This document shows, piece by piece, positions 9,441 through 34,506 of a stretch of DNA of 64,000 bases. The stretch is from IMG/VR virus record IMGVR_UViG_3300044679_000013, positions 1-64,000 of that record. One strand, 5' to 3'. The translations under genes were made by a program, and so were the position numbers. This stretch comes from a virus. How positions within the stretch are numbered: the first letter of the stretch is position 1; every line of letters starts with the position of its first letter. Below the pieces are notes generated by a model. It did not search any database, had not been told where the DNA came from, and saw only the letters and a program-made list of their open reading frames with translations.

Positions 9441-10049
9441 ATGCGCCGACTCTTGCTAGCCTTTCTCGTTCTCGCCAGCCCAGTTTTTGCCGACTCCATC
9501 CCGCAGCCAGTGACAAACCTGCCCATGACAGGAATGGAGGTCTTGGGATTCTTTAACTCTTCTACCAACTACGATTTGGGAGTAACGAATATTCCTCAAG
9601 GGACTACCATCTGCGGGGGGATTTGCGTATCCCTAGAGATGCAGGATGGAGTCACCACGGGTAGTTCCTCCCCTGCTGGGGAATTGAACTCTGCCTGGGT
9701 CTACGATTTCGGCCCTAATGGGTCCATAATGTTTGGCCATCTCGGAAAAGTCTCACTCATTGGCGATGAACTGACAGCCATTTTTAGCGGCAAGGAAGGT
9801 ATAACATCTGGAGGTATTCGGTCGTGGTATACCGTTCAGGGAACATATTCCGACAATATCTCCGGGTTATTAAAGGGAACAATTACCTACGGGACTGGGG
9901 GGATCGTCCTGAACCGAGAGCAGTATATTGGCACATCCCCAGTGCCAGAACCGGGAACGCTGGTTTTGCTTGGGACTGGGCTGCTGTTAGTCTACTTTGG
10001 CTTCTACAATGTTACTCGGAGCCGTAAGCACCTTTTTCCCCGCCACTAA
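9441..10049 (+). CDS. PEP-CTERM sorting-domain protein
   Basis: An N-terminal signal peptide (residues 1-18, ending VFA|DS) is followed by a beta-rich ectodomain. The C-terminus is a PEP-CTERM anchor: PVPEPGT at about residues 167-173, a hydrophobic helix, then a basic RSRK cluster. Exosortase of the host would cleave near the PEP motif and release or anchor the protein at the surface. Such proteins are typical of exopolysaccharide-making bacteria and very rare in phages. The 3' end overlaps the convergent tail gene by 63 bases. It is likely cargo acting on the host surface. Confidence 0.9.
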   Translation: MRRLLLAFLVLASPVFADSIPQPVTNLPMTGMEVLGFFNSSTNYDLGVTNIPQGTTICGGICVSLEMQDGVTTGSSSPAGELNSAWVYDFGPNGSIMFGHLGKVSLIGDELTAIFSGKEGITSGGIRSWYTVQGTYSDNISGLLKGTITYGTGGIVLNREQYIGTSPVPEPGTLVLLGTGLLLVYFGFYNVTRSRKHLFPRH

Positions 10050-10628
10050 ATCGTTGGCTCGGATGTCGAAGTAGCAGAGCTTATTCTTTCGAGTGCATGG
10101 GGCGGTAAAAGAGGTTGCGGTCACGGTCGCGACTTTGGGCGGCGCAGGACAGGTCGATTCCGCACAATCATAGACGTTATAAGACTCTACGGTAATTCCT
10201 GTCTGTGGTAAGGGCGGCTCCCATTGAAGCGGGACGTTCTCTGCCGTAATCGTTCCTACGGTCAGATTAATCGGTGCGTTCGGGATTGGGTTGGCAGGGA
10301 CTGCGGCAGAGACTTGAGAACTGTATCCGCTTTCGCCAGAAGAATCTACGGCGGTAGCCACATAGAAGTAAGTTTGGCTGAATCCCACGGTCGTATCCGT
10401 GTAGGCGCAGGTCGAGCTCATTGGACTTGTGCCGAGGATCGTATAAGGTCCGCCACTGGTTGTACTGCGGTAGAAATTGAATCCTGTGGCCGCTGCGCCT
10501 GTTGGGGAAGGCGTACAGGATAGGGCGACACTTGGACCCGTGCTGGAGGTTGCTGGAGTGACTTTGGCCTTTACCTGCCCAAATAAAGGCAGGCTAATAG
10601 CTAGGACGAAAGAGATCAGATAACGCAT
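9987..10628 (-). CDS. Exported protein with fibronectin type III-like domains
   Basis: AAGGAG precedes the ATG. A signal peptide (residues 1-17, LFG|QV) is followed by two fibronectin type III-like repeats: one with FNFYRSTTSGGPYT and TYFYVATAVD, the second starting near PINLTV and ending with a Cys-rich strand. It is the last gene of the exported tail-protein chain and overlaps both its upstream neighbour (35 bases) and the convergent PEP-CTERM gene. It probably binds surface polymers or joins tail parts. Confidence 0.8.
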   Translation of the reverse strand: MRYLISFVLAISLPLFGQVKAKVTPATSSTGPSVALSCTPSPTGAAATGFNFYRSTTSGGPYTILGTSPMSSTCAYTDTTVGFSQTYFYVATAVDSSGESGYSSQVSAAVPANPIPNAPINLTVGTITAENVPLQWEPPLPQTGITVESYNVYDCAESTCPAPPKVATVTATSFTAPCTRKNKLCYFDIRANDLVAGKKVLTAPSNIVEAKVD

Positions 10629-13600
10629 TGGGATTCTCCTTAAGTATGGAAGCTTTGATATTCGCGAACATTCCTAAAGGTGGGGCGGGGACTGCAATGA
10701 CTGGGATGCCCATATTCAGCATGAGTGAAAACGGTTCGGCGGCGGCGGCTAGACTTGTTGCGAGTCCCGTATTTCCCGGAAATCCGTAGTACATGTCCTC
10801 ATCGCAAATTGCGAATTGGGCGTCTGGAGACTCAGTACAGATTGTGTCTGTGCCTTCAAACTGTTCTCCGGCGTGGTTATTGCCGTTTTCGTAGTGATGG
10901 GCGTACCAAGTCGTTCCGCCTGTTTTCGCAACACTGAAAAGTGAGTTTTGGCCGAGGGCGCAAGTAAAGTTTGGCGGGTTGGTTTGTGTCGGCGTGCCTG
11001 CGGTATTGATTGAACTCGTAATTAAGATTGGTAGCGAGTCATCATTCAGAATTGTTGAGACGGCAGAGTGCATCTGCGCCCCACCGGGAGAAGTCGAGCA
11101 GTTTCCACCTGTTCCACCAGAGGGCAAGGTATAAAGCAATTGGCAGTCAGAAAGATTTGAGCAGCTTGGATCAGAGATTGCCGCGAGGAATTGGTTCAGA
11201 TAGTAGTTTGGATTCGAAGCCGTTCCGAGCCAATTAAACCCGCCAGAAGGATGGCCGTTTTGATTGCCTGAAGTCGTGCCTGTTAATGCCGGCGAATTTC
11301 CCACAGTCCAGATCACGTAATCACAACCAGAACACTGTCCCGGTTGGCCTGACGTTCCCCAGCCCGATAGCCATGTAAACGTCCCAGAGGAGAGCATTCC
11401 GCCAGCGTGAATCCCAAACGTGTAAATGCCCGTTGTAATCGGGACTTCACAGGTCAGGGTTGTTCCGGCTGGGCAAGAGGCTGAGGAAATTGGCGCGTAG
11501 AGAGTTGCGTAGGTTCCAATCGTCCCAATTCCCGTAACGTCGTATTCGAGTCCGGTTCCTGTGCCGCCTGTCGTGGCATGGCCTTGCCCGAGGCTGGCTC
11601 CCGTGCCTGCCGTGACTTGAGTTAGAGCCGTGACTACTCCGCCCGAGACTGTCGCGGTATAAGTATCTCCGTAAGCTCCCGTGATGGTGTCGCCGTTTGT
11701 GTAACCAGTCCCGCCGTGGCTAGCAGTCACACCGTAGGTATAGACTGCCGTTCCCGTCATTCCATCGGTGTCCAAGGTTTCGCAGGTTCCGTTAGCTAAG
11801 GACACAATGAACTGCATGTGGCGCCCCGGCCCACCTTGAGAACCTGAGCCGAGAATGAACTCTACTTTGTCGTCGTAGTTGTCCGTAATCATCGCGCCAG
11901 AGAAGGCGAGTCCAGTGCCAAGCGTCGTGTAGCCGAATCCGGGGCAAGTCGAGATATCATAGAGATTCGTTGTCAGCGAGCTTATGACGCAGTTTCCAGT
12001 TCCGCCTGGGCACAAAGCTCCGGTAGTGTAAGCGAGCACATCGCTTTTCAGCCAGAACGGAGAAGCATAAGGCGTAGAACTATAAAGTGAGTACCAGAGA
12101 GCTTCATTTGATCCGGGGCGCTTCGCCAAGCTTCTTGAAAACGCGCCATAATTCATCGGCGTGTGGTACCAAGCCTTACTGTCTGACGTCACATCTGGGA
12201 TAAAGCAGGGCACGTTATTGCAGAAACTGGAGTCAATATGGCCCGAGAAAATATCCTGTCGCCCCGAGGTCACGAGGACATACATATAATTCCCAAGGCC
12301 ATCGGGAAGAGAAATCCCATGATCGTAAGATTCGCCAGAGGCTGAAGGGCTAAGGGAATTCGTTGCAGTCGTGTAATCCGCCATCGCTACAAATGGCGAG
12401 CACGGAGCACTATCTGATCCACTGCATGGAATCGAGAAATCGTAGGCAAATGTCCCGACCGTTGAGGTGACGGCACAACCCGGAGCGCCATTGCAAAGCG
12501 GAAAAGGTGCGGTGACAAACGGCTGCCAGCCTTGCCCTTGGAGATAACCCGTGGTGTCTGAAGTTGTACTCAGATTCGATAGTGTCTGCGCGACCTTCTG
12601 CACGTTGTAGAGTGTGCCGACGACCTTCGTGCTATTCGTGGAGGAATTCGTCAGCAGAATCTGCCCGTTTAACTGTGTGCAGGTCGTGAAGCCAGAAAGC
12701 CCTATCCATGAATTTGCGGTGAAGGTATTGCTGGCTGTGATTGTGACGATGTTTGACGCGATGGAACAAGCTGTCGAAGTTGCGGTCAGATTGTTTGTTA
12801 GAACAGATGGCGTTCCGGTCTGCGAGAAAACGGCGTTTATGCTGAGTGCAGACGTGACATTGACCGTACAAGGCAAAGTTCCCGAACATCCCCCACCATA
12901 CCAACCGCTGAAAACATAAGAACCTGACGGAGCAGCATTTAACGTCACGCTGCCCGTAAATCCGACAGAGCACGTTCCGGGACAGTTGATTCCGATAGGG
13001 CTACTGGTCACAATCCCTGTACCCGAGACGGAAACGGAAATACTTCCACTACTCGCGGAAAATGTCGCGGACACGGAAGACGCGCCAGTTGCGGTGATTG
13101 AGCAAGTTCCCGTGCCCGAACAACCCGCCCCGGACCATCCTGTAAACGCATACCCAGAACTCGGAGTGGCCGTAAGCACAACTACTGTGCCACTCGCATA
13201 GGTTCCGACACAGGCACTCGGACAATTGATCTGACCTTGATTGTCAGCAACCGATCCGCCTGTCGGAGTGGTTACCGTGATGGTGGGGTTTTGCGAGAAT
13301 GTTAAGCTGGCCTCATCAAGGTTTGCTGTTAGGGTAGTTCCTGCGGAGCCTACGTCTAGCTCGAAATTTACACCGGAATTTTCGCCATAACTGCCGGGAA
13401 GGGCGCCGGAACTGTAGCAGTTGTTAATCGTGTGCTGTACGCCGTCAATCGTGATTGTGTCATAGCACTGTTTCGGATAGCCTCCGGTGCCTGAGGTGTC
13501 TCCGCAGGTCCAGTGGTCGTTCATCGTGATGTGATGCCAGGCCCCGGTAGCGAAGCCAGAAGCGCAAGAGATCGTCGGCGAGGTGTTGTGCCAAGCTTTC

Positions 13601-15672
13601 CCACCTTGATCCCAGATTTGCAGGTTTCCCGAAGAAGTTACGCATTGCGTGCCAAAATAAAACTCGGTATTATTCGCCAGACAAGATGGGTTCGAGGTCG
13701 CCTTGACATACTCATAAAGATCGAACTCATTAGCATTTCCTGAGCTGTTGGTCGAGCCCGAATAATATTCGAAGTCATTCGTGAGAACGGTTGCGAGGTC
13801 TTGCGGCCCAGCATTGTAAAACCATCCTACGCAACCTTCCGGCGCGCTAATGAGAGTAAACAGGCTTGAGAATCCATCTAGCGATGGGCTCGTGTTCCCG
13901 ATGGTGTGCGGATAACTTGAAGGCCCGGTGGGATCTCCGCATCCCGTATCAATGTAGGGAGGGGTGGCCCAACCGATTGCAGGACTGCCGCTGGAGGTTG
14001 GCGGGATATCATCAATATTTGAGGTAATTGTGCCTCCGACCGTAAAGCTTGCAGAGGCTACGGAACTGTTCGTATCTCCGCTGAGTGTTGCTAAGACTTT
14101 GACGGTTTCCGTTGCGCTTACATTGACCGTCCCGCCATTCGCTAGAGTGGTTCCGTGTGAGCAGGTTCCGGGAGTCGTCGCGGTTGGAGTTGAGCTGTCA
14201 GTCGTATAGCAGAGGGTTGCCCCGCTGGTCGAACTGGTAATCGTGACAATCTGTCCATTGGCAAATTGCGTTCCGGTTGGCGGGGTAAAGACAGGCGTGG
14301 AAGCAGTAGCGCCGGTAAATTGATAGGCTCCACGATCTGTGGTGAAGGTGACACCATTCACGTCCACAGTGTAAGGCGAACTGAGCGCGAGCCGGTTGTT
14401 CCAATCAGCATTGTCGGAAGCGAGATTGAAATTGCTGGAGGGCCAGTTGACGAAGGGGTTAGGTGCACCGGAGGTTACGTGTACATCGTGCGTCCCACTG
14501 CCAAAGCCGCTGCCAGAGTTTAGAAATGAGTTGTAGTCCGAAGTGACTGTCGTGCTGTTCGTGCTAAGTCCGATGGTGCCTGAATAATTCCCGTAATAGA
14601 GATTGTTCTCGATGGTGGCACTGCTACCCGTGTTTCCGTCTGCGAATCCGATGCCGCACGCCGATACCCCCAAACTCGTAGTCGATGGCTGAGGGCAGTT
14701 GATAATCGTATTTTGAACATAGGTAATGTTCGTACAAACTGAACTGTTGATACAGTCGAAAGCTGCGTCCGATGTGCTAGGCAGCCAAGACGCTTGCGGG
14801 GAGGAATAAACAACCGTGTTGTTATAGAACAACCAGTTATTTTTCGTACCTCCTTCCCCAAAGGTCCAGATGGCGGTTCCAGCTATGTCTCGATAAACAT
14901 TGTTGGAACGGACGCCGTTGTTGCTTGACGGGATGACGTACTCTGCCTGCCCGTGTGCATTATTCGTCGCACCGTTTACTTCTGTGCCCCAAAAATAAGT
15001 GTGATCAACCGTACTATTGCTGGGGATATTCTGCATAAATACGGTGCCGGAATTGTGTAGGTAAGAGAACCCTAAATAAAAGCCTGTGCCCCCTTGAAAA
15101 ATCTCATAGTTATTATCGTTGTTGTAACCTGAGGCCAACAGTTCGATATATTTGATGGTTACATTAGTCGAGCTTTCCAACTCGATGACCGTAGTTTCGG
15201 TCCCGGTTCCCACCAGCTTGAATCCGCAATCGGATGGGGTGGGGGGCGATGCGGTGACGGTGGAACCCGGCGCGCCTCCGCAACCCGAGGCCGTAGAAGT
15301 GCCGTTTCCGTTCAGGGTGAAGTAATTAGCATCCACCACAAGTGCGTTACCGCCACTGGTGAATATGGCTTGCGAGGAACCCATTGTGCTCGTATTCCAG
15401 CCCGTCGATGTGCAATTGTCGTAGCTCTGCGCCTTGCGAAATTCGACCGTCAAAGTACCGGAGGCGGCTTGGCTGAATTCATAAGAACCGTAAGTACCAT
15501 CAGCGAAGTAATAGATGTCGCCTCGCGTTAGTGTGCCAGGAGGCCCGGCATAGGAGTTGTTCCAGTCTGCCCCGGTTTTAGATCCTGCTCCAGATACGCT
15601 TACCGTATGGCACGCTCCGAAAGCCAACGGAGCACTAAATAAACACGCGAGTAATAGGAGTAAGCGTCTCAT
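10594..15672 (-). CDS. Giant exported tail-spike-like protein (1692 aa)
   Basis: The start is the ATG at 15672, in an ATGA overlap with the gene before it; it opens directly onto a signal peptide, MRRLLLLLACLFSAPLAFG. In order the protein shows a right-handed beta-helix of pectate-lyase type (roughly residues 100-460), a chitobiase C-terminal-type repeat (about 465-555), a LamG-like concanavalin segment (about 570-790), two divergent InlB-type repeats with GWSGAGC and GWYGGGC (about 795-960), and a long C-terminal region containing a GGTGYTNGD repeat typical of phage fibres. The architecture is that of a polysaccharide-binding or polysaccharide-degrading spike. Catalytic residues cannot be named. 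Confidence 0.8.
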   Translation of the reverse strand: MRRLLLLLACLFSAPLAFGACHTVSVSGAGSKTGADWNNSYAGPPGTLTRGDIYYFADGTYGSYEFSQAASGTLTVEFRKAQSYDNCTSTGWNTSTMGSSQAIFTSGGNALVVDANYFTLNGNGTSTASGCGGAPGSTVTASPPTPSDCGFKLVGTGTETTVIELESSTNVTIKYIELLASGYNNDNNYEIFQGGTGFYLGFSYLHNSGTVFMQNIPSNSTVDHTYFWGTEVNGATNNAHGQAEYVIPSSNNGVRSNNVYRDIAGTAIWTFGEGGTKNNWLFYNNTVVYSSPQASWLPSTSDAAFDCINSSVCTNITYVQNTIINCPQPSTTSLGVSACGIGFADGNTGSSATIENNLYYGNYSGTIGLSTNSTTVTSDYNSFLNSGSGFGSGTHDVHVTSGAPNPFVNWPSSNFNLASDNADWNNRLALSSPYTVDVNGVTFTTDRGAYQFTGATASTPVFTPPTGTQFANGQIVTITSSTSGATLCYTTDSSTPTATTPGTCSHGTTLANGGTVNVSATETVKVLATLSGDTNSSVASASFTVGGTITSNIDDIPPTSSGSPAIGWATPPYIDTGCGDPTGPSSYPHTIGNTSPSLDGFSSLFTLISAPEGCVGWFYNAGPQDLATVLTNDFEYYSGSTNSSGNANEFDLYEYVKATSNPSCLANNTEFYFGTQCVTSSGNLQIWDQGGKAWHNTSPTISCASGFATGAWHHITMNDHWTCGDTSGTGGYPKQCYDTITIDGVQHTINNCYSSGALPGSYGENSGVNFELDVGSAGTTLTANLDEASLTFSQNPTITVTTPTGGSVADNQGQINCPSACVGTYASGTVVVLTATPSSGYAFTGWSGAGCSGTGTCSITATGASSVSATFSASSGSISVSVSGTGIVTSSPIGINCPGTCSVGFTGSVTLNAAPSGSYVFSGWYGGGCSGTLPCTVNVTSALSINAVFSQTGTPSVLTNNLTATSTACSIASNIVTITASNTFTANSWIGLSGFTTCTQLNGQILLTNSSTNSTKVVGTLYNVQKVAQTLSNLSTTSDTTGYLQGQGWQPFVTAPFPLCNGAPGCAVTSTVGTFAYDFSIPCSGSDSAPCSPFVAMADYTTATNSLSPSASGESYDHGISLPDGLGNYMYVLVTSGRQDIFSGHIDSSFCNNVPCFIPDVTSDSKAWYHTPMNYGAFSRSLAKRPGSNEALWYSLYSSTPYASPFWLKSDVLAYTTGALCPGGTGNCVISSLTTNLYDISTCPGFGYTTLGTGLAFSGAMITDNYDDKVEFILGSGSQGGPGRHMQFIVSLANGTCETLDTDGMTGTAVYTYGVTASHGGTGYTNGDTITGAYGDTYTATVSGGVVTALTQVTAGTGASLGQGHATTGGTGTGLEYDVTGIGTIGTYATLYAPISSASCPAGTTLTCEVPITTGIYTFGIHAGGMLSSGTFTWLSGWGTSGQPGQCSGCDYVIWTVGNSPALTGTTSGNQNGHPSGGFNWLGTASNPNYYLNQFLAAISDPSCSNLSDCQLLYTLPSGGTGGNCSTSPGGAQMHSAVSTILNDDSLPILITSSINTAGTPTQTNPPNFTCALGQNSLFSVAKTGGTTWYAHHYENGNNHAGEQFEGTDTICTESPDAQFAICDEDMYYGFPGNTGLATSLAAAAEPFSLMLNMGIPVIAVPAPPLGMFANIKASILKENPNALSDLFRPSY

Positions 15673-16301
15673 TCTTGCGGACCCGGTGAAAGGATCCAAG
15701 TTAAAGGAATCCCCTTCCAAAACTGTTTATGCTGGTTCCATAACTGATTCGGAACGAACTTGCCATGTCGGACTAGCGCAGGGCTTGGCGGGACGAATTG
15801 CCTGAAGGCTCTACGTTTCTCCGTCGTACCTCCCAGCGGCGTAAGGTTGCCATAGTAAGTGCATTTCATAGGCTCATGAGTGCATACTTGCGCGCCAATG
15901 CCGAACGATGGTCCTCTGCCATCATTCCAACAGTACGAAGTTATGTGGGTCTGCGCCTTGTCCATGACCAGCGCATAATGGTCGCAGCCGAAAATGATCG
16001 TGTCGTCTACTTTGATTGCTGCAACCCATCCGGGCGCGTCATCAACTATCTGATGGCTCATATACGGCTTTGATGGGAGTGTTGCCCAATCTTTGACAGA
16101 TTGAAAATCTTGAGGATGAACGAGAGTCCACTGTACGGACACGCGCTGGGCAAACATCGGCAGCGAGAGCAATAAGAAGATAGCGAACTGGAGAAGTGCG
16201 TATGCCTGACCTTTATTGAGATTGGAGAAACTGCGGCCCACGATGAGGGTCAGGACCTCTGGTATCATGTACAGTGCGTCCCAGAATCGCGCTAGCTTCA
16301 T
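15669..16301 (-). CDS. Membrane-anchored or exported hypothetical protein
   Basis: The 210-residue product is coupled to both neighbours by 4-base overlaps. A hydrophobic segment at about residues 35-51 ends in a signal-peptidase-like MFAQ, so export could begin from an internal start or the first 34 residues could be cytoplasmic. The remainder is rich in His, Cys and Trp with no motif that I recognise. It lies inside the exported tail cluster. Confidence 0.6.
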   Translation of the reverse strand: MKLARFWDALYMIPEVLTLIVGRSFSNLNKGQAYALLQFAIFLLLSLPMFAQRVSVQWTLVHPQDFQSVKDWATLPSKPYMSHQIVDDAPGWVAAIKVDDTIIFGCDHYALVMDKAQTHITSYCWNDGRGPSFGIGAQVCTHEPMKCTYYGNLTPLGGTTEKRRAFRQFVPPSPALVRHGKFVPNQLWNQHKQFWKGIPLTWILSPGPQE

Positions 16302-17362
16302 TTAATCCCCAATTCGCTAGGTAATACGCCAGCCGTTCCAACGGATTTCGTAGAACTAACGGTTACCCCGGTCCCAGTTACGTTAATTGTGTCGGGGTTT
16401 CCTACGTTGTCGGGAACGGTTACCGTCGTGTTCTGCGCTCCGGCCACGGTCGGAGTGAAGGTGAGAGTAAATGTACACATAGTCCCGCCAGCGATATCCT
16501 CACTGGAGCAAGTGTCGGAAGAAATCACATAAGCCCCACTCCCGGAAGAAAGACTTCCTATATCCAGCGCCGAGCTTCCAGGATTCGAGATGGTTACCGT
16601 GAGGAAGGAGTTGTTTCCCACGCTCACACTTCCAAAAGCGACTGGCGAAGGAGAGTAAGAGAAAATCGGCCCAGCAGCATTAAGAGTGAGAATGGCCGAC
16701 CCCCACCCTTTTGGCGTGCTTGGGTTGTTGCAGGCATTGCTTCCTGAATCCGTCTCCGCCGTGATGGCTGTATTGGTGGTGTATAGGTAAGTTCCAACCG
16801 GATCGCCGCCAATGTCTAAGACATTTGAGAATGTGACGCTGCTGCCATTTAAGTTGATGGCATCCCCATAACAGGTGAATCCGACGATAGCTAGTCCATG
16901 AGAAGCTGTAGGAGTAACTGAGACCGCACTTGGCGCAGAAGTCCCCACGGCCTGATTAAACGCTGATGTACAGGAACTCGAAGGCAATCCCGAGACTTCA
17001 AAGAACACCATCTGAACCAATCCTTCATAGCTTCCTCCATCCAGCGAAATGGACGTGACGCCCCCCGCCCCACTGCAAATTACCGTGAAACAGGAATACG
17101 CATCCCCGCCCGCCCCACCGGTAACGATCCCGCTTTCGCTGGAACATTGCGGAGATGGCCAGGATTGGCCTTTGTTGTCGCTGAGCGTAAAGGGCTGATT
17201 TTCGGGATTGGTCAGCAGGATTTGCGCGTTCCCTGCCGTGGTGGAAGTTACTGCAAAAGGGAAACAGTTGTTGTCTCCCGCACCGCAATGGCTGATATGT
17301 GCGATGGTCTGCGCGTGGAGACAACCGGCGACAACGATCAGAAATAGAAGCAGTCTCTTCAT
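16298..17362 (-). CDS. Exported beta-sandwich protein with choice-of-anchor D domain
   Basis: The signal sequence ends in VAGCLHAQ, so either a lipobox (VAGC) or normal cleavage before Gln is possible. Residues about 25-230 form a beta-sandwich domain shared with the two genes upstream. Residues about 235-340 match the choice-of-anchor D domain (FGSVSVGNNSFLTVTISN and TVAGAQNTTVTV), common in Acidobacteriota and Planctomycetota secreted proteins. Both ends overlap neighbours by ATGA. Confidence 0.8.
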   Translation of the reverse strand: MKRLLLFLIVVAGCLHAQTIAHISHCGAGDNNCFPFAVTSTTAGNAQILLTNPENQPFTLSDNKGQSWPSPQCSSESGIVTGGAGGDAYSCFTVICSGAGGVTSISLDGGSYEGLVQMVFFEVSGLPSSSCTSAFNQAVGTSAPSAVSVTPTASHGLAIVGFTCYGDAINLNGSSVTFSNVLDIGGDPVGTYLYTTNTAITAETDSGSNACNNPSTPKGWGSAILTLNAAGPIFSYSPSPVAFGSVSVGNNSFLTVTISNPGSSALDIGSLSSGSGAYVISSDTCSSEDIAGGTMCTFTLTFTPTVAGAQNTTVTVPDNVGNPDTINVTGTGVTVSSTKSVGTAGVLPSELGIK

Positions 17363-18078
17363 GGTGTCAAAATCTTTTTTAGTTTCGCGCGCTTATTGGA
17401 GGTGGGAGTTGACCCTCCGCCTCCAGCAGCTTCAAAGCTCCAGATCGCGCCGACCACTCCCCCAGTCGTGCTGTTTCCGCAGGATGTATCCGAGGTTGCG
17501 GTTTCCGTGGCCGTAGAAGACACAATGGTGTTTCCGCCGACTTCGCCATTCGGTGTTGTCACATGGGAGAAGGTCGTCGGGCTGCCGGTGATCGCGGTTC
17601 CGGAACCAGCGCACGAATAAGCTGCGACAATAAATTCATTTGCCGTGCTGGGCGTAAGGGAGGCGGCACAGCTTGTCGAGCCAGTACAGGTCCCCACCTG
17701 ATCTGCGGGAGAAGACGTGTTCATCCCCGAGGCTTCAAATTCCCAGATAGCATTTACGGAAGTCCCACCTGTGGCTGTAATTGATGTCGCCAGAGACTTA
17801 CTGCTGAGGACAAGCCAGACGCAGACGGTGCTGACGGCAGAAGCACCGCCCGAGGGTGAACATGTACCCTGCTTGGTATATGTATTCGAACCTCCGGAGG
17901 CATTGTCGGCAAGACTGGTGGGCTGAGTCGTCTGATAGTCGGTGATGACATAGATGTTATTTCCCGTGCCAGTAGAAGTGATCGCGCATGGAAAGGTGGT
18001 GCAATTCGCACTATGAACGTAGGTCTGCGCCGAGACGAGCGAGGTACAAAACAACAGAAATAGAGCAAGTCGCTTCAC
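17359..18078 (-). CDS. Exported beta-sandwich protein, paralogue of neighbours
   Basis: The start is a GTG at 18078 that overlaps the upstream stop as TAGTG; this places a signal peptide (cleavage VSA|QT) at the very N-terminus. The domain has a GNNIYVIT strand, a NTYTKQ strand, then NEFIVAAYSC, the same order as in the flanking genes. The C-terminus is a Gly-rich then basic tail (KRAKLKK). It is probably a receptor-binding or decoration protein. Confidence 0.75.
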   Translation of the reverse strand: MKRLALFLLFCTSLVSAQTYVHSANCTTFPCAITSTGTGNNIYVITDYQTTQPTSLADNASGGSNTYTKQGTCSPSGGASAVSTVCVWLVLSSKSLATSITATGGTSVNAIWEFEASGMNTSSPADQVGTCTGSTSCAASLTPSTANEFIVAAYSCAGSGTAITGSPTTFSHVTTPNGEVGGNTIVSSTATETATSDTSCGNSTTGGVVGAIWSFEAAGGGGSTPTSNKRAKLKKILTP

Positions 18079-19736
18079 TAGGGTCGTTCCTGCCAATTCC
18101 AAGTCACGGTCAGATTGCCGCCAGTGATCGCGCCGCCGAAGTTCAGGGCCAAGATTTGCGCAGTGCCGCGCAGCACGATCGGTTTAAGACGAAGATCGAG
18201 AACGTAAATGTCATTGGGGCCTGTTGTGGTAGTTGCGTTGCAGCCAAATTGCGCGGTGTCCACGTTAGCAATTGGAGTGCCAACTGTTGGTCCAGTGCCC
18301 GTGTAACTGACTGGCGTGCTGGCGGCTGCGACATAGTTTGCATCATCCGGTACATCGGTAAAGTTGGCCGAAGTTCCTCCACTGCCCGCCGCAGAGCGCT
18401 TGACAACGCTGAGTGTCTGAATCCCCGCAGTCGTTGCGATGCAAGTGACAGTCACCTTCGTGACTAGAACCGTGGTTGTAGCATTGCCCGCAATTAAGGA
18501 ATTGTCTGTGGTCGAACTTGCGGCAAAAGATTTCGAGGCTGAATAACTAGCCGCTGAAATGTTTGGCTGGATCTCTGCTGTCTCGATATTTCTCGGAGCA
18601 AATGAGGCGGAGATCGTTCCCGCTGTTGGATAGGTTCCGCAAGCATAGGTAGCGACTAATTGATCGCCGGTCGCGATGGAGGGATTGACGAAATAATCAA
18701 TCGCCCCATTCGATGGAGCCACGGCAATCGTCGTGATGGCAGAGGTCGCAGTGCTGGCTGCGCTCGATTGATAAGCCAAGGCAATCGTGCAGGTCGCAGG
18801 CGATCCGGTAATTCCTGTCCAAACTACTTGCAAAGTTCCATAACCGGATAAGCCAGGAGGGCGAATCGCTGCGCTAGTAGCCGTAGCCGTTGCCGCCACG
18901 GTGGTAAACAGCGGAGCATATAGGCTGAGTGGAGAATTGCCGACATACGTGAGAGCGGTAGTCGTGGAAGAGGCTACCGAAACCGGCTTCACGGACACCA
19001 AGACCGCTGAATAAGTTTCCGAAGCTGACAAGGACACCGTCTGCGTAAAGTTCGGGATCGTACTGACATTCGCATGTGCAGAGTAGAAGACAGAAAGAGC
19101 CGAACCGCCCGATGGAGTGGTATTTGACTGATCAACTGTTGTTAAAGAGGACGGAACTCCAGCAATCGAAGGCGTAGCGTTGACGGTCCCGGCGCCCATG
19201 CCGACGGCAACGAAAGCTAATTCGTTCGGGAGGGTGGCTGTTTGCGTGGCAAAACTTAGCGTGGCCGAAGTGGCTTGCTGGCCGTTGACGTAATCCCATG
19301 CCTGCCCGACCGAAACTGATCCCTTAAGTTCGTGGCAGGAAAACGATGCCGCGCCAGAAGTCGTCGTTTCAGTGACGGTGTCCGTCGTTCCGCCAACAAT
19401 ATTTGTCGCCAGAGCGACGGCATAGCCGGGAGCGGTAGCCGAAGAGGCTGCAGTGATATAAGTGTTTGATTGGGCATCGGAAAATGTCGGAGCTGCTGCA
19501 GCGGACTCAAATCCGATACACAGGATAGAGTTTCCGGCAGTTGTGCTTGCTCCAAAGGCGTTGGTGATCGTTGTGCCAGAACCGCCCGACACCTTGGAGT
19601 TAACAGCCTGCGCCTCAAGTACGGGCTGGACAAAGGGACATGGCCCCCACTGCCCAGCAGAAGCTTGGCATTGAACGGTTTGTGCGTGCGAGATTCCGCA
19701 GAGTAGAAGTGGTAAGAGCCAGAAAAGTTTCTTCAT
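18078..19736 (-). CDS. Exported tail-type protein with repeated beta-sandwich
   Basis: A signal peptide ends at SHA|QT. Residues about 45-255 form the beta-sandwich domain also seen in the next two genes (TAGNSILCIGF, SNTYITAAS, NELAFVAVGM). The C-terminal half (about 260-552) is a different beta-rich region. Size and position beside the fibre gene fit a tail or receptor-binding protein. The stop is coupled to the next start. Confidence 0.75.
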   Translation of the reverse strand: MKKLFWLLPLLLCGISHAQTVQCQASAGQWGPCPFVQPVLEAQAVNSKVSGGSGTTITNAFGASTTAGNSILCIGFESAAAAPTFSDAQSNTYITAASSATAPGYAVALATNIVGGTTDTVTETTTSGAASFSCHELKGSVSVGQAWDYVNGQQATSATLSFATQTATLPNELAFVAVGMGAGTVNATPSIAGVPSSLTTVDQSNTTPSGGSALSVFYSAHANVSTIPNFTQTVSLSASETYSAVLVSVKPVSVASSTTTALTYVGNSPLSLYAPLFTTVAATATATSAAIRPPGLSGYGTLQVVWTGITGSPATCTIALAYQSSAASTATSAITTIAVAPSNGAIDYFVNPSIATGDQLVATYACGTYPTAGTISASFAPRNIETAEIQPNISAASYSASKSFAASSTTDNSLIAGNATTTVLVTKVTVTCIATTAGIQTLSVVKRSAAGSGGTSANFTDVPDDANYVAAASTPVSYTGTGPTVGTPIANVDTAQFGCNATTTTGPNDIYVLDLRLKPIVLRGTAQILALNFGGAITGGNLTVTWNWQERP

Positions 19737-19743
19737 AATTTCC

Positions 19744-22700
19744 TCAGTACATCCTCACAAACGCTGTGGCGCTGGAAACACTAGAAGCTGTTGCCTTGAC
19801 TACGCCAACACCTTCACCCGTGGCGCAAGCAGTTGCACCGTTATCGTGGGCGAGTCCCGCAGAAGATGACGCACAGAGATTGTCGCCAAAGGTCACATTG
19901 ATCGTGGCGTCGAGCGTTACAGTGGTTTCGCCGCTAGCAATCCAGGTCGTTGAAGAATTAAAAACACCGACAAAGTTATTGGACGGCGTGCCTGTACAAT
20001 TTCCGATGACGCTGGAGGATGTGTAGCAGGCGAGATGTCCGGCAGTGATGGTCCCTGCGGTATCGGTAAACCCAGTGCCGAGTCCGGTACCCAACCCGTT
20101 TACTGCTTGATTGGCAGTGGCTCCGGTAAGTCCACTGCCGATCGGTAAGCCGGTTTCATTCGTTAAAACGCCGGAGGTCGGAGTACCTAAAGCTGAAGTA
20201 ACGAGCGAGATGCTGGTCAGGGTTGTGCCGACCGACCAAGTACCCGACGACACTTGCGCTACACCAGTTGAGGAGTTGGTGTTAATCCCGGTTCCGCCAT
20301 ATTGGGCGCTGATGGCTGTCGCATTCCACACGCCAACATCAATCGCGCCATTGCCTAAGACTTCGAAAGCAAGCGTCCCGCCGCCATTGGTCGTATCTGT
20401 GGACGTTACTCCCGCGTAAGCTTGGATGAATTGGTATCCCGTGCCCGGAGCTGTGGCATTGTTCCAGCGGTTCATCGTACCAACGTAGGAAGTGCTTGGT
20501 GCCCACTCACGAATCGCTTGCAGGTTCGTTCCGTTGGCTTCTAGGATTACGTTTCCGGTTGCTGGTGAGCCAATTGAGGTACAAGGCACGACAGAGCCGA
20601 AGACGACAATTCCAGAGCCCTGAGCGCAGACGGAGAATTGAACATTGTTCGCTGTGCCCACAGTTAGAGCAGGTTGGACGGAAGCGGCGCCTGTGTTGAG
20701 TTTTAAGAGTGCGCCTGTGTCTGTTTCTGAAGCCGCGCCTAGCATATAGAACGTTGGCGTCGATCCGCCTACTGTGGTACTTGGGGCAATCTCCCATGCA
20801 CTAGTAGAAGTATTCGTATTCGGTGTCACGCCCGAGAACGGAACTGCAGTTGCCGTGATTGTGCCGCTTCCGGTCGCCCCGAGAGATGCACCCGTACCAA
20901 CCAGCATGGCCGCTGTCGTATTTGTTCCTGAAGTGATTGCACTGAAGGCCGAACTTCCGCCGCCAGAGATTGTGTTACACCCGAAAGCTCCCGTAGACGC
21001 TGTAAAGGTCACGGCATTGGTTGAACTGTGGCAGTCGGTAAATGCCGCAATCGTTGGCACGACTGGCATGTAGGTATTCGTGTTATTGGTGTAAGCAATC
21101 CCCCACCAGTTCGGCGGGATAAGTTGGGTTGATCCGCCGCCCGGATAAATCAAGCCCGAGGCCGGGGTGTAAGTGATCGCTCCTGTCCCTATTGGAAGGA
21201 ACGCAAAGGTATAGTTATTCGTGAGCATGTTGGTGCCAGCCCACGGAGTTGCGGAAGAGTAATTCCCAACGATTAAGTGGACATCATCAGTCGCTGGGAT
21301 TGTGTAAGTTGAGCCCGATGCCGATTGAAGATCAACTGGGATACCCGGAATTGACCACGCTGGTGCTGTGGCCGATCCGCCAGAGGGGGTGCTTGTATAC
21401 ACCTCTGCGATGCCACTAGGCCCAGTAGGTCCGTTTAAGGCGGTTGCTGATCCGCCCGAGCCTCCATAGATGGTGCAACCTAAGATCGTGCAAGGATTCG
21501 TAAAGGCGTTCTGTAAAACAAACTGATCTGTGGCGATTTTGGTCGAGCTGTCGCCGATGCTCTGAGTCGTGCCCGTCGTGCCATTTGCCAAGGCCGTGGA
21601 CGCCGAGAAAGTTCCCGAGACAACCTGTACGACACCCGTAGCAGAGCTAAAGCTTGCCCCTAATCCGCCAAGGGTATTCGGGATAATCGGGAGGTCGGTA
21701 GTCGCAATAGCTCTGAAGGCAGGTGCGCCTGCCGTAGCAAATAAGGCATAAGTCGTTACAGTTGCCGCCGAAATGGTCGAAGTAGCCTGTCCACCGCCGC
21801 CGATCACAACGGCGTTGTTTGTTAGCGAGGCTGCGCTAGTGACGCAAGTCGGACAAGCCAAAGCCGAAGAAACAAATGCCAACGGAGAAGTAACGCCGAA
21901 GTAAATCGGGACCGCATTGCTGCTGGTAGGGTTACCAAAGATCGTGTCGGCGTTCGAATTTGATAGGTTGAATGTAATTACAGCTGCACCAGTCGGGTTG
22001 GCAATGGATGTCGTGAAAATCGGGGCCATTGCATTTCCCGTAATACTGATGCTGCTAACCCCACTCCCGCCTGATCCGCACGTTCCCCAAGCTAAAGCCG
22101 CACCTGTGTAGGTAAGGCATTCTAGCGATACAGGAAGGCTTGGAATTGCCGCACCCAGTAAGTGACTCGCATTGTTTTCCCCACCAGAACTGAATGTTAT
22201 GATTCCGCCGCTGGCCACTGTGACCGTCGCACTATTCGGAATCGAAGCTCCGCCAGTAAAAGTTGCGAGTCCAGTTACGGCGAACGTCCCCGGCAGAGAC
22301 ATATCGCCAGAGGTGTCGAGCGTGGCTGTGGCCGAAGGAGTTTGAGAAACAGTTGTTCCACCTCCGGTCATTAGGGCATTGTTGGTTAGGCTCCCGGAAG
22401 ATTTGACCGTAACCGTACCCGTTCCGAGCGGACACCACGTCCAAGCAGACGGTTGGTAACACAAACTCGAAAGGCTTGCAGGGAGGGCGGCAAGGGGAGC
22501 CCCGAGCAGATTTGTGGCATTAATCGTACCGCTGCCCGTCACGCCGAGCGACCCGCCCGTACCGATGAGTAAGGTGTTGTCGTTTGTCCCTGATGTGATT
22601 GCACTGAAGCTTGGAGAGGCTAGTCCCGATCCGCAACCACTTCCATCACCCTTTAGATATTGTCCAGAGGTACAGAAGGCAAAGTTCGCACCGTTGGAAT

Positions 22701-24450
22701 TGAATTGGGCGAAGATCGTCCCATTCTGATAGAGTGCGATGTAGTTTCCGCTCGGAACGCCGATGTTTACGCCGGCGATATGGCTTACCGAACCAGAGGG
22801 CACGCCAGCGATGTAGTTTCCGAGAGTGTCGGTTACGTCCCAGACTTCTTGGCCCCCGCTAAGACTTGGCTGGCCGTGAACAATAACCTCGCCAATATCT
22901 GCGCTGTCATCGCCAACAATTTCTGCAATATGCCCGTTAGAAAAGAAGTACCCGTTTCCGGGAGAGCTGATATCTGCATACGACAGTGACCCAAGGTAGG
23001 TCGATTGGTCATTCAATGCCCCAAGTAATAACTGAGCATTTCCCGACCCAAGATTCGCGTTAAATTGCCCTGTACTTGGCAGCGTAATTGTGATTCCGGT
23101 TGAGCCACCATCCACAATCGGAGAGTTCCCTAGAGTGATGCTTGACCCGCTGAATTCTGCTATCGTTCCCGGTGTACCCGAGCCTCCGATTGATCCACTT
23201 CCCCCGCAATACCCATTGGCAGCCGTGCAGACATTTGAGCCGTTTAACTGAAGGATTCCGGCTGAAGTCGCTGTTAGTTGGGCATAGTGTGCGACATTTG
23301 AGCCGTCTAGTCCCGTGAGGGTAATTGGCGGTGATCCGCAAGGCCCAGAGGTGCAGTTAGAATTAATCCAGATCGCCGAACCGCTGCTGTTGATAGACTG
23401 GCTGGCAATGTAGATTCCGTTCAACCACTGTAGAGTCGAAGGAGAAGAACTTTGAATACTTAAGGCCGTCCCGTTATTCGCGGTTCCCGGCATCGTTCCC
23501 GAGACTCCATGCGCAGGACTCAGTGTCAGGTCCAGACAATGAACAAATGAAGGCGTTCCCGAGACTCCGCAATCAACTTCAACACCTTCAACGTTTGAAG
23601 TAATTCCCGGCTCATCGTTTACAACAAAGTTTGCTCCCCACTCCCCCGCTCCGTTTGCCGTGCCTACGGCTAATCCAAAGACTGCGACTCCATTGCAAGT
23701 AGTACGTGACAGGGAATTACATCCTGTCGTCATGTACCCAGCTACGCCATTCCCTTGCAACCCCGTCATGCCGGGAGGTAAGGCAATCCCAAAGCTCCCC
23801 GCTTCTGTGGCGTACCCAGGAAATCCCACATCGTTATAGATATGCGTGGAGATTCCGCCTACCCAGGAACCTAAATACTGATTCATTTGGGTATTCGTGA
23901 ATGTTCCTGACGCGATATTAGAAAGGCTGTCTGTGGTGTAGTTATAGAAGAGACTCGATTGTGCCCCGAAAGCTCCGGCTTTGTTGAATTGGATTTGAGT
24001 ATCAGAACCACCGGGGATTCCTCCGCCAGTTCCGGTGCCGGGAAACATCAGAGGCTCTACGTCGGTTACGAGAATCCCTTGCCCGTAAGCCTGGTAATAC
24101 ACATACCCTGCAGGGGAGCCGGAAGTAGAACTGATATACAGTCTTACCATCCCGAAGCCGTCTGCCAATCCGGGATTTGTGCAACCTACACCATAGGTAG
24201 GTCCGAGGATTAACGGGTTTAGAGTGCAATCGGTCGCCAATGTAATGTCTGAGTAGGTTTGGAGGACGCTCGATCCGCCGCAGGGCGTAGTGGCTGTTGG
24301 CAGACTGCTGCAAAGTGCAATATTGGCCCCAGCAACCGCTACGCCATTCGCCGTCAAGACTGGGAATGAAGTATAGGAAGCTTGCCCCAAGGCAACAGAA
24401 CTAAACATTGCCACGGTAGCGACTACGGCCAATTTGTGCATAAGTCTCAT
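19744..24450 (-). CDS. Giant exported tail-fibre-like protein (1568 aa)
   Basis: A signal peptide (to about residue 23, ALG|QA) precedes a beta-rich N-terminal domain. A very long Gly/Ser/Thr-rich shaft follows, with recurring blocks such as FSAITSGTN and SLTNNAVVIGGG and TLGGLG segments. The low-complexity repetitive shaft and the C-terminal VGVVKATASSVSSATAFVRMY knob resemble long phage tail fibres. Eight bases separate it from the next gene. The signal peptide is the odd part: tail fibres normally fold in the cytoplasm. Confidence 0.8.
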   Translation of the reverse strand: MRLMHKLAVVATVAMFSSVALGQASYTSFPVLTANGVAVAGANIALCSSLPTATTPCGGSSVLQTYSDITLATDCTLNPLILGPTYGVGCTNPGLADGFGMVRLYISSTSGSPAGYVYYQAYGQGILVTDVEPLMFPGTGTGGGIPGGSDTQIQFNKAGAFGAQSSLFYNYTTDSLSNIASGTFTNTQMNQYLGSWVGGISTHIYNDVGFPGYATEAGSFGIALPPGMTGLQGNGVAGYMTTGCNSLSRTTCNGVAVFGLAVGTANGAGEWGANFVVNDEPGITSNVEGVEVDCGVSGTPSFVHCLDLTLSPAHGVSGTMPGTANNGTALSIQSSSPSTLQWLNGIYIASQSINSSGSAIWINSNCTSGPCGSPPITLTGLDGSNVAHYAQLTATSAGILQLNGSNVCTAANGYCGGSGSIGGSGTPGTIAEFSGSSITLGNSPIVDGGSTGITITLPSTGQFNANLGSGNAQLLLGALNDQSTYLGSLSYADISSPGNGYFFSNGHIAEIVGDDSADIGEVIVHGQPSLSGGQEVWDVTDTLGNYIAGVPSGSVSHIAGVNIGVPSGNYIALYQNGTIFAQFNSNGANFAFCTSGQYLKGDGSGCGSGLASPSFSAITSGTNDNTLLIGTGGSLGVTGSGTINATNLLGAPLAALPASLSSLCYQPSAWTWCPLGTGTVTVKSSGSLTNNALMTGGGTTVSQTPSATATLDTSGDMSLPGTFAVTGLATFTGGASIPNSATVTVASGGIITFSSGGENNASHLLGAAIPSLPVSLECLTYTGAALAWGTCGSGGSGVSSISITGNAMAPIFTTSIANPTGAAVITFNLSNSNADTIFGNPTSSNAVPIYFGVTSPLAFVSSALACPTCVTSAASLTNNAVVIGGGGQATSTISAATVTTYALFATAGAPAFRAIATTDLPIIPNTLGGLGASFSSATGVVQVVSGTFSASTALANGTTGTTQSIGDSSTKIATDQFVLQNAFTNPCTILGCTIYGGSGGSATALNGPTGPSGIAEVYTSTPSGGSATAPAWSIPGIPVDLQSASGSTYTIPATDDVHLIVGNYSSATPWAGTNMLTNNYTFAFLPIGTGAITYTPASGLIYPGGGSTQLIPPNWWGIAYTNNTNTYMPVVPTIAAFTDCHSSTNAVTFTASTGAFGCNTISGGGSSAFSAITSGTNTTAAMLVGTGASLGATGSGTITATAVPFSGVTPNTNTSTSAWEIAPSTTVGGSTPTFYMLGAASETDTGALLKLNTGAASVQPALTVGTANNVQFSVCAQGSGIVVFGSVVPCTSIGSPATGNVILEANGTNLQAIREWAPSTSYVGTMNRWNNATAPGTGYQFIQAYAGVTSTDTTNGGGTLAFEVLGNGAIDVGVWNATAISAQYGGTGINTNSSTGVAQVSSGTWSVGTTLTSISLVTSALGTPTSGVLTNETGLPIGSGLTGATANQAVNGLGTGLGTGFTDTAGTITAGHLACYTSSSVIGNCTGTPSNNFVGVFNSSTTWIASGETTVTLDATINVTFGDNLCASSSAGLAHDNGATACATGEGVGVVKATASSVSSATAFVRMY

Positions 24451-24458
24451 AAGAGCCT

Positions 24459-25010
24459 TTAGTCAATAATCTGAAACATAGGGCACGTTTGGCCCGTCGT
24501 AGAAGCCAAGGTAATCGTGAAACTAACCCCTGCAGAAATCGCAGAAATCGTCGGCTCCGAGGTTATTGCCGGAGCAACACATGTAGGCGTGCTCGGCAAA
24601 TTCGAAGCAAAACTCAGCCAGGTAAGCTGTATCCTGCTGCTTGCCGTCACCGCGCTTGTATTAATCGTATAAGTCGTTGTAGTTGTCGGAATGACAACAG
24701 CACCCGCCGCCGCTGAACCGCAAGCCGCCGGAGAAGCAGAATTCACCGCACAATTGGAACTTGTCGAGTACGTTGCCGAGGTCACGCCAGTAAACGTTGG
24801 CGAACCCGATCCAGTACAACTGATTCCGAATACCCCGGTAGCGAATGAGGCTGTACAGCCAGCGGTGAAGTTCAGAGTAATTTGCCCAGTCTTTGTGCCA
24901 ACAGCAGTCCCGCTATTCTGCAATGTGACACGCGATAATCCAGCTACTCCTTGAGCAAAAGCCGGGAGCGATAGAAGCACAAAGACAGCAAATTGGCGAA
25001 TCGTTTTCAT
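24459..25010 (-). CDS. Exported short tail protein with phage C-terminal knob domain
   Basis: A signal peptide ends AFA|QG. The C-terminal half carries the pattern INTSAVTASSRIQLTW followed by PTISAISAGVSFTI, which is the common phage spike C-terminal domain involved in trimerisation or receptor contact. It comes immediately before the giant fibre gene in transcription. Confidence 0.75.
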   Translation of the reverse strand: MKTIRQFAVFVLLSLPAFAQGVAGLSRVTLQNSGTAVGTKTGQITLNFTAGCTASFATGVFGISCTGSGSPTFTGVTSATYSTSSNCAVNSASPAACGSAAAGAVVIPTTTTTYTINTSAVTASSRIQLTWLSFASNLPSTPTCVAPAITSEPTISAISAGVSFTITLASTTGQTCPMFQIID

Positions 25011-25011: not shown

Positions 25012-25494
25012 TCAGTTCACCGATGGTTCGGGATCATTTCTTATTTCTTCAAGACGCATTTGCACATCGCAGTCTTGGAGTAAAAGTGTTGGTTCGGCTT
25101 CCCCGCTCGAATTCAGCAGAGGAAAGACTTGACCGATCGCTGCGTAGCGATCAAACAGAATCAAGTCGCCCTCTTTGAGGCCCCAGCCGGGAAGTTTCGA
25201 ATCGGCGGCAAAGGCGAGAATTCGTCCGACTTCGCTTTTCTCTTTTGCGGAGTCTGGGATGATGATCGAGGAGTTGGATTTCATCTCAACGCGAGTTACG
25301 AGCACGCGCTGATTGAAGGGCTGGCCCTTGTAGAAAACGGATGGGCGTTTTGGTGCAAAGAGGGCCGAATTGTCTACGACGCTTGGGACATCCTCTTCTG
25401 CGGCGACGGATGGCTTTAATTCCCCCGGACCGTAACCCCCTTGAAATGTTGCTTTTGCATCGCCCCTAGCTAATCTGTCTCCCTTTCCCTGCAT
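25012..25494 (-). CDS. GroES-like co-chaperonin
   Basis: After a disordered N-terminus of about 55 residues, the protein matches the Cpn10 fold: QRVLVTRVEMK at about residue 62, a SSIIIPDSAKEK segment, GRILAF, then GLKEGDLILFDRYAA and a final LLLQDCDVQMRLEEI. The roof loop and mobile loop are present. Phages such as T4 (gp31) encode co-chaperonins so that host GroEL can fold the capsid protein. The position between ejection proteins and the tail genes is compatible with a late folding role for capsid or spike proteins. Confidence 0.85.
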   Translation of the reverse strand: MQGKGDRLARGDAKATFQGGYGPGELKPSVAAEEDVPSVVDNSALFAPKRPSVFYKGQPFNQRVLVTRVEMKSNSSIIIPDSAKEKSEVGRILAFAADSKLPGWGLKEGDLILFDRYAAIGQVFPLLNSSGEAEPTLLLQDCDVQMRLEEIRNDPEPSVN

Positions 25495-25533: not shown

Positions 25534-25680
25534 ATGATGGTTTTGCTTTTAGCCATCCTTGCCGCTTCCACTGGCGCACTCTCTGTGGCTGAAGCTTGGG
25601 CCGAGCGCGATATTCCGTGGCACTGCGGAAAATATTTCTTACTGTTCTTTACCGGCCTCCTCTTTTTCCTCTTCCGGTGA
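25534..25680 (+). CDS. Possible 48-residue membrane protein on the opposite strand
   Basis: The frame reads two Met codons, a hydrophobic helix (residues 3-19), an acidic turn, and a second hydrophobic helix (about 33-47). It fills the only gap between two minus-strand genes and overlaps the end of one by 42 bases. There is no Shine-Dalgarno, so it may be chance. Confidence 0.25.
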   Translation: MMVLLLAILAASTGALSVAEAWAERDIPWHCGKYFLLFFTGLLFFLFR

Positions 25681-27036
25681 TCGGTCCAACTGCAAAGCAA
25701 TTGCTTTCCCTAGTTGCGGCGTGTAACCAGATTTCATAACTCGAGCCGCAGACATTTGTGCCGTTGGTGAAGCTATTAGCTCTGGCACCGCAATTCCCAT
25801 CGTTCCGCCGACAATGGCTCCCGGAATTCCGCCTCGTTGATAGCCAAGGCCTCCGCCGATTCCGGCACCCGCCAGTGCTCCGGTATGCGCCGACATGCGG
25901 TGCATGATTCGTTGTGCGGTTGGAGCACCATTTGCCAAGATTGAGGCGCGTTGCTTGACGGGAATTAAGCTAGAAATTCTCTGATTTAACTCTTGCGACT
26001 CTGGTACAGCCTTATCGAGTTCACTATCCAAAGCACCATAGACTCGCTGAATAATAGCTTTAGTCTTATCCTTCTGACCTTCTGTCCAGTTGTCTACTAA
26101 ATCACCAATGCCCCGCTTCATCTCCAAGATGTTTTCTGCTGACATCTGCGAAGGGATAGCCTTGCCCGTATAGCGATTTTTAGTTAACTGGTCCTTGACC
26201 TCCTGAAGATTCTCGGCTATTGGACTATTTCTCTTCTGGAATGTGGCGATCTGTGCATCTAAGTCTTGAATTGCTTTGCTGCTGCTGGTCGGGATGGCAG
26301 ATTTCGCCGCAGCTTGCTCCAGTTGTCCAGTAAGTGCATGCGCCTTGGCTCCAGCCTCATCGAAAACCGATGCGGGGCGGACACTCTTTAGTTCGTTCAG
26401 TGCAGCATCGCCGATAGTTCTGCCATGCCCACGCATCCGATTCGTAACGCCCAAAGCAGATTCAGCGATAATCGGCGCTACCTTTTGTAAACCTTGATTG
26501 ACGAGTTCTCCACCTGCTCCCGCTTCGGCGCCAGTCTTGAAATTGCCGCCCTGAGTCATATTTCTGACGCCACTTTCGACGGCTTGCGTGCCGAGTTTCG
26601 CCAGCGGGATTGCTTTCCCAGCCTTCGGCAACAAGGCTGCTAAATGCTCTTCTGCGCCAGTGGGGGCAAGCCACTCACCAACTTGCTCACCGCCGTACCC
26701 AAGCTGCTGCGCGAATCCATGCGGCACCATCGGAGCGGCAGGCGCATTGTTAGCTCCGACGCCAGTTCCAGATAGATATGGCGGGGTAGCGTGCTCTCCG
26801 AGAACACCCGCGGTGTGCATCAAGCCCTTAGCCGCACCTTTGGCAAAATCTTTTGCCGTATCCCAGCCCTGCTCTAGAAGAGAAGGTTCTGGAGCGGCAG
26901 TAGAAACAGTGGGAGTTGAGTTCTTGCTTTTAGCCGCCTCTTCCCACGGATCATTCTCAGCAGGCGCAGTTGTGTTAGTAGCAGTTTGTGCCGCTGCTGG
27001 CCGTGAAGCTGCCGCGTCCTCCCAGGGATCGCCCAT
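25639..27036 (-). CDS. Internal virion or ejection-type protein
   Basis: The start is the ATG at 27036, which overlaps the upstream stop as TAATG and begins MGDPWEDAA; a DPWEEAA copy occurs near residue 30. The 465-residue product is long, Ala-rich and helical, with a Gly-rich hydrophobic stretch near residues 385-420 that could cross a membrane. The N-terminal DPWE motif and the position after the nozzle-like gene are typical of podovirus ejection proteins. This is by context. Confidence 0.65.
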   Translation of the reverse strand: MGDPWEDAAASRPAAAQTATNTTAPAENDPWEEAAKSKNSTPTVSTAAPEPSLLEQGWDTAKDFAKGAAKGLMHTAGVLGEHATPPYLSGTGVGANNAPAAPMVPHGFAQQLGYGGEQVGEWLAPTGAEEHLAALLPKAGKAIPLAKLGTQAVESGVRNMTQGGNFKTGAEAGAGGELVNQGLQKVAPIIAESALGVTNRMRGHGRTIGDAALNELKSVRPASVFDEAGAKAHALTGQLEQAAAKSAIPTSSSKAIQDLDAQIATFQKRNSPIAENLQEVKDQLTKNRYTGKAIPSQMSAENILEMKRGIGDLVDNWTEGQKDKTKAIIQRVYGALDSELDKAVPESQELNQRISSLIPVKQRASILANGAPTAQRIMHRMSAHTGALAGAGIGGGLGYQRGGIPGAIVGGTMGIAVPELIASPTAQMSAARVMKSGYTPQLGKAIALQLDRSPEEEKEEAGKEQ

Positions 27037-29530: not shown

Positions 29531-29540
29531 ACGTATCCTG

Positions 29541-29558: not shown

Positions 29559-29575
29559 TTTTTGAAGTTTGGAGA

Positions 29576-34503: not shown

Positions 34504-34506
34504 TGG

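Follow-up and report, generated by a model that had tools for sequence, protein, structure and literature searches.

Tailed phages are taught as systems of cytoplasmic self-assembly, and the question raised by the locus described here is why the tail genes of such a phage should begin with signal peptides (SPs) for the Sec export pathway. The locus is a module of eight adjacent genes on the minus strand (25010 down to 9987) of a 64,000-nucleotide stretch of DNA, the window, which is positions 1 to 64,000 of the 65.8-kb linear IMG/VR virus record IMGVR_UViG_3300044679_000013 from a soil phage. The original prediction described a whole tail module with Sec SPs, and this description is supported and extends to cultured acidobacterial phages and to spikes located in a virion operon. 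Of the two explanations offered with it, extracytoplasmic spike assembly is the better fit, and an exclusion layer gained no specific support. Extracytoplasmic assembly is favoured because the mature N-terminal domain is colinear with the virion-binding N-terminus of SP-less podovirus tailspikes and because the window shows no SP-less candidate receptor-binding gene. The comparison suggests that the host-binding tail proteins of this phage leave the cytoplasm and join the particle late. In its full form, in which the module encodes receptor-binding spikes or fibres that would be Sec-exported, trimmed, probably given disulfides in the periplasm and attached to tails on lysis, this reading is given about an even chance.

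SPs were called with a rule based on n-region charge, the h-region and an A-x-A-type site, and not with SignalP; the rule misses long c-regions and called only 6 of 42 among spike-bearing IMG/VR contigs. Sec/signal peptidase I-like SPs are called in seven of the eight module genes and in none of the 14 other virion genes of the window (Fisher p = 4.7e-5). Each of the seven features a positive n-region, a hydrophobic h-region, small residues at -3 and -1, and an upstream start codon. Wrong-frame decoys gave 0 calls in 44, the virion genes of T7 and P22 gave 0 in 10 and 0 in 13, and shuffling the residues of each module gene gave a chance call of 0.5-4% per gene. All eight closely packed open reading frames are present on the minus strand at the coordinates first reported, although two starts were corrected: gene 17359 begins at a GTG at 18078 and gene 10594 at an ATG at 15672. 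The set of seven SP genes holds for the module and was slightly too small for the window, where a ninth SP gene (44585-45433) lies outside the module. Additionally, the module proteins contain 2.5% Cys versus 0.8% in the other virion genes (p = 1.7e-4).

The SP is maintained across homologues. Residue features, rather than the SP rule, were scored in 56 distinct homologues, with the N-termini of other virion families as the control. The residue at -1, before the conserved Gln, is Ala in 39 and Gly in 17; the -3 residue is small or aliphatic in all 56, and the hydrophobic core is preceded by Lys or Arg in 56 of 56. Among the control N-termini, 13 of 229 reach the hydrophobicity cut-off, and the rule makes 2 SP calls in 292 sequences from the other virion families of the same elements, both gp12-like. 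Pairwise identity is 0.23 in the SP versus 0.71 in the mature part. Cleaved SPs diverge in this way, drifting freely in sequence while the chemistry of the cleavage site is kept. The properties of the SP appear conserved as if under selection.

Comparison with SP-less homologues shows which kind of domain follows the SP. In an acidobacterial spike with an SP (L279), the N-domain has about 44-63% identity to the starts of podovirus spikes from Proteobacteria, with roughly 45-55% for those of PBR31 and X14, and this spike and a second one (L277) match known tailspikes, so that homology to proven spike domains is seen in relatives of the module. In the SP-less spikes of Xanthomonas PBR31, Shewanella X14 and Rhodoferax P26218 the initiator Met lies at +2 to +3 from the acidobacterial cleavage site, and in all SP-less homologues compared it lies between -1 and +3 of the predicted cut. 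The N-terminal part of the PBR31 spike has been described as apparently a virion-binding domain (PMC10975493). Podovirus tailspikes such as those of PBR31 and X14, which are P22/Sf6-like (PMC10975493), share with the SP spikes a beta-rich virion-binding N-domain and a position in the tail module; unlike the acidobacterial forms, the PBR31 and X14 spikes start directly with the N-domain, with neither an SP nor a Cys pair there. Granulicella prophages feature both forms. The SP form L272 (LHA before the cut, QGVRYDSNV...SVCSSPAVGTPCTNL after it) is colinear from the cut with the SP-less L146 (MAGIRYDSNV...AVYIYGAPPETL), whose Met corresponds to -1 of the L272 cut, and the Cys pair is found only in L272. 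The pair L192 (SP-less) and L283 shows the same pattern. On this comparison the SP is an add-on before an ordinary spike, because the SP-less homologues are colinear from the cut onward. The Cys pair is present in 61 of 62 SP versions, at the same place in most of the divergent ones, and absent in the SP-less homologues seen; the pair tends to accompany the SP. Because of the exception, L279, a strict rule by which every SP comes with the pair was abandoned. The pair would probably form a periplasmic disulfide.

The position of the module also points to the tail. The minus-strand virion genes run from terminase, portal, scaffold-like and major capsid protein (MCP) genes (36875-48520; no SP except in 44585-45433, which lies inside) through 227-aa, zinc-ribbon, gp11-, gp12-, fn3-, GNAT-, gp14-, gp15- and gp16-like genes (25639-36075; T7-like order, no SP) to a GroES/Cpn10-like gene (25012-25494, minus strand, no SP) that heads the module, between it and the internal virion genes. 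The T7 roles are assigned from gene order. Gene order and HMM homology among relatives reveal gp11/gp12-like tail genes, internal virion proteins and no long-tail genes, as in a podovirus, and the module occupies the position of T7 gp17; in relatives the spikes are inside the operon. The order portal, scaffold, MCP, gp11, gp12, gp13 to 16-like and fibre is common to T7 and the window, however, T7 has one SP-less fibre gene, whereas the window has eight genes, seven with an SP, and the GroES-like gene before them. From the GroES-like gene downwards the intergenic gaps are +1, +8, +7, -1, -4, -4, -4 and -35 nt, and because of these tight gaps (+8 to -35 nt) the eight module genes look like one operon. 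An SP-less receptor-binding candidate was found neither in the window nor in the related contig G002 or the cultured phages Tunturi 1 and 2.

Scans of viral contigs with single window proteins matched only the IMG/VR contigs G001 and G002; a tblastn search of 50,697 phages with the portal and the gp12-like protein of the window gave no match, as did a first scan of genome contigs for homologues. G001 and G002 share the virion gene order of the window, and their SP spikes come after the internal-virion genes. In G001 the GroES-like gene is kept (L002) directly before an SP fibre of ~2400 aa, and in G002 the gp16-like gene is followed by three SP spikes, one of which has a weak match of the pectate-lyase type. 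A portal profile matched 61 of 399 Terriglobia genomes. Homologues of the MCP, 227-aa, zinc-ribbon, gp11 and gp12 genes surround ~30 of these 61 portals, and ~20 elements feature an SP protein of 930-1720 aa inside the virion operon, with the motif ...AQGSRKDDIVFN..G.PLAGATVRVC..G.PC.PLA.IYSD after the SP. The aligned mature N-domain of these chromosomal spikes was the productive query for IMG/VR and recovered 42 more contigs, 40 of which have an SP spike beside the MCP and 227-aa genes; some metagenome-assembled genomes in this comparison are possibly of recent common ancestry with the IMG/VR contigs. Outside Terriglobia, 190 genomes of the class of G407 served as a soft control and gave one weak match, SP-less and Cys-less. 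A match in G406 with an SP-like start and the Cys pair was not used, as the record is labelled Verrucomicrobia and its 16S pattern is acidobacterial. T7-like virion clusters occur in many Terriglobia chromosomes (L150-L162, L201 and L202, in G024, G207, G151, G225 and G015), and no gp15/16-like genes are detectable in them. Host flanks are shared on the NAD synthase side in G024, G207 and G151 and on an isopropylmalate-dehydrogenase-like side in G207, G225 and G015, suggesting that the clusters are vertically inherited, possibly domesticated or gene-transfer-agent-like.

Homologues were also sought in other acidobacterial phages, and SP tail genes were found in the cultured phages Tunturi 1, 2 and 4. 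Tunturi 1 and 2 are plaque-forming podoviruses isolated on Tunturiibacter (PMC11924767). Tunturi 1 grows on Tunturiibacter psychrotolerans X5P2; after the predicted cut its ORF12 would begin with QTAAY and its ORF17 with QTCTQ. Tunturi 1 (PP887698) and Tunturi 2 (PP885685) each have five consecutive SP genes in the tail module, including ones annotated as tail spike/pectin lyase and virion structural protein, with 2.06% Cys in the SP genes versus 0.49% in the other virion genes. Consecutive SP tail genes and raised Cys are common to these phages and the window, although gene content is largely unrelated in sequence and the tail genes of the Tunturi phages are flanked by gp11-like and lysis genes. 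SP tail genes also occur in the siphovirus Tunturi 4, and one of their products is 47% identical over 751 aa to an SP protein of Tunturi 1. The annotated start of another Tunturi 4 gene, ORF111 (L208 30076-33171), seems to be placed too far downstream; translation from an in-frame TTG ahead of it yields LNRISKAIGLCALALSVGSSYG followed by Gln, an SP like that of the neighbouring tail gene. The podovirus Tunturi 3 has no SP tail genes; it shares its host strain with Tunturi 1 and 2, and export imposed by the host was therefore rejected.

The module genes, all on the minus strand, differ in size and domains. The first (24459-25010) encodes an SP (MKTIRQFAVFVLLSLPAFA, cut before Gln) and a short protein; its last 106 aa share 75% identity with the C-terminal end of the first spike of G002 (L003), which has an SP and 1239 aa, and a Pfam K1-lyase_C match of the short protein is sub-threshold only. 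The second (19744-24450) encodes an SP (MRLMHKLAVVATVAMFSSVALG, then Gln) and a tail-fibre-like protein of 1568 aa, the first 145 aa of which are 49% identical to a 715-aa SP gene of G001 located between the MCP and 227-aa genes. It is followed by a 552-aa secreted-type repeat protein (18078-19736; SP MKKLFWLLPLLLCGISHA, then Gln), which resembles the next two proteins in its domain as judged by eye only. Those two, 17359-18078 (GTG start; SP VKRLALFLLFCTSLVSA, then Gln) and 16298-17362 (SP MKRLLLFLIVVAGCLHA, then Gln; C-terminal ASH domain), are 31% identical over 236 aa. The gene without a called SP (15669-16301) encodes 210 aa with an internal hydrophobic SP-like segment at residues ~32-51 (...LLQFAIFLLLSLPMFAQ), as first reported; its sole plausible internal start is a GTG at codon 21 with a weak ribosome-binding site. 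A stretch of 18 aa in this segment matches the SP region of 24459 at 72% identity, a hint that an SP has been duplicated or shuffled. The largest protein (10594-15672; 1692 aa; SP MRRLLLLLACLFSAPLAFG, then Ala) contains CHB_HEX_C and two InlB B-repeat domains and, over 115 aa, shares 51% identity with a virion protein of Tunturi 1 that also has an SP. The last gene (9987-10628; SP MRYLISFVLAISLPLFG, then Gln) has a sub-threshold fn3-like domain. The outlying SP gene (44585-45433, minus strand; MKLRNLILGFALTILSISVFG, then Gln) lies between terminase and portal. Its homologue in G001 keeps the SP, and homologues in L009, L195 and L198 have N-terminal SP-like segments, that of L195 not called by the rule. 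PHROGs gave no match for six of the eight module proteins.

Two further loci on the plus strand were noted. A convergent gene (9441-10049) shares 63 nt with the end of the module and encodes an SP and a C-terminal PEP-CTERM motif just above the Pfam cut-off, which makes it a putative phage-encoded exosortase-type substrate. A small protein with a single membrane segment (2567-2914) is encoded near a small lipoprotein-like gene (3089-3427, LVGC lipobox), and the two are a possible spanin pair.

In the proposed mechanism the module would encode receptor-binding tail spikes or fibres and accessory adhesins at the T7 gene-17 position, each with an N-terminal extension that acts as a cleavable Sec SP exactly before the ordinary virion-binding N-domain. 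During infection the proteins would be secreted by SecYEG, cut after Ala or Gly, and would fold and oxidise in the periplasm, where the conserved Cys pair can form a disulfide. The exported spikes would be kept apart from cytoplasmic heads and tails until the envelope breaks at lysis, when prefabricated spikes would meet released particles and dock. In T4, fibres are made in advance and added late, and in vitro complementation with extracts is documented (PMC9576892), so docking after prefabrication is reasonable. For phages of Acidobacteriota more widely, podoviruses and siphoviruses, a split-compartment assembly, with heads and tails cytoplasmic and the receptor-binding Sec precursors acquiring disulfides in the periplasm before docking at lysis, is held somewhat more tentatively than the reading for the window.

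Several points weigh against this reading. Export and virion incorporation of the module proteins are both inferred, and the SP caller is a rule that misses long c-regions. For five of the eight module proteins the phage-family match is weak or absent, and homology identifies 19744 alone as clearly fibre-like, through its link to L002. AlphaFold models of the 19744 N-domain and the gp11-like protein, built from two-sequence alignments, reached a pLDDT of 35-38 and were discarded, which leaves the docking domains without structural support. L279 has an SP without the Cys pair, and Tunturi 3 indicates that export is not needed by its host.

The main rival is a mixed module, in which the large spikes 19744 and 10594 are exported virion proteins and the small SP genes 9987, 16298, 17359, 18078 and 24459 encode secreted accessories such as adhesins, chaperones or exclusion factors. 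The heterogeneity of the module genes in size and domains, the paralogy of 17359 and 16298 and the neighbouring PEP-CTERM gene, by which the phage would also encode a sorted surface protein, agree with it. The C-terminal domain that 24459 has in common with a 1239-aa spike, however, favours a tail role, and the mixed module is considered unlikely, though it is a serious competitor. A purely secreted, non-virion role comes next and is somewhat less likely again: the proteins would be secreted enzymes or adhesins (a depolymerase, an exclusion layer or a competitor decoy) that merely share tail-spike domains. ASH, InlB B-repeat and chitobiase-C domains, found in 16298 and 10594, are known mainly from bacterial secreted proteins. 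Additionally, a bacterial enzyme with a tailspike fold is known (PMC7949094). Against this stand the canonical virion-binding N-domain directly after the SP, the location of SP spikes within the virion operon, the annotation of SP genes in cultured phages as tail spike or virion structural, and the search of the window, G002 and Tunturi 1 and 2, which turned up no receptor-binding candidate without an SP. It is improbable that the hydrophobic N-terminus does not serve export, either as a buried anchor in the virion or because it is read late or inefficiently and the protein is retained in the cytoplasm. This compartment is where virion proteins normally assemble, and 15669 has its segment internally, but a structural anchor would be expected to conserve its sequence, whereas the SP drifts with its cleavage-site chemistry kept and the SP-less homologues start at the predicted cut without the Cys pair. 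An artefact, with bacterial surface genes brought in by mis-assembly or mis-binning of a linear IMG/VR contig that has no assigned host, or with chance hydrophobic N-termini, is barely credible given that the arrangement recurs in two other viral contigs, dozens more contigs and three complete cultured phage genomes, and given the chance rates measured with shuffles and decoys.

Beyond the acidobacterial phages described here, no tailed phage is known with the proposed export and late joining of its tail proteins. No description of SP-bearing tail modules was found in the literature searched, which had subscription papers outside its scope, and the term signal peptide is absent from the Tunturi paper (PMC11924767). 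Sec-exported phage lysis proteins are known, including the fOg44 endolysin Lys44 and the SAR endolysins (PMC6116005). They use the host Sec system, with a cleaved SP in Lys44, as proposed for the window, but they are lysis enzymes and not virion adhesins. The arrangement does not resemble membrane assembly of the filamentous type, as the MCP, portal and terminase have no SP. A phage substitute for GroES has a precedent in T4 gp31, with which the GroES-like gene of the window may be compared. Adhesins of phages that are targets of diversity-generating retroelements are reported to have no SP, in contrast to those displayed on bacterial surfaces, and the authors take this lack as support for phage origin (PMC6199706). 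The window, with phage adhesins of opposite SP status, is the opposite case.

If export is real, it would be a second, extracytoplasmic route of tail assembly, so far unrecognised for tailed phages, and would explain how such genes could be mistaken for host secreted proteins in annotation. It would also provide disulfide-stabilised adhesins suited to soil, and would let a phage release depolymerases and adhesins ahead of lysis. Tunturi 1, 2 and 4, which have the trait, and Tunturi 3, which lacks it and infects the same strain as Tunturi 1 and 2, make export directly testable.

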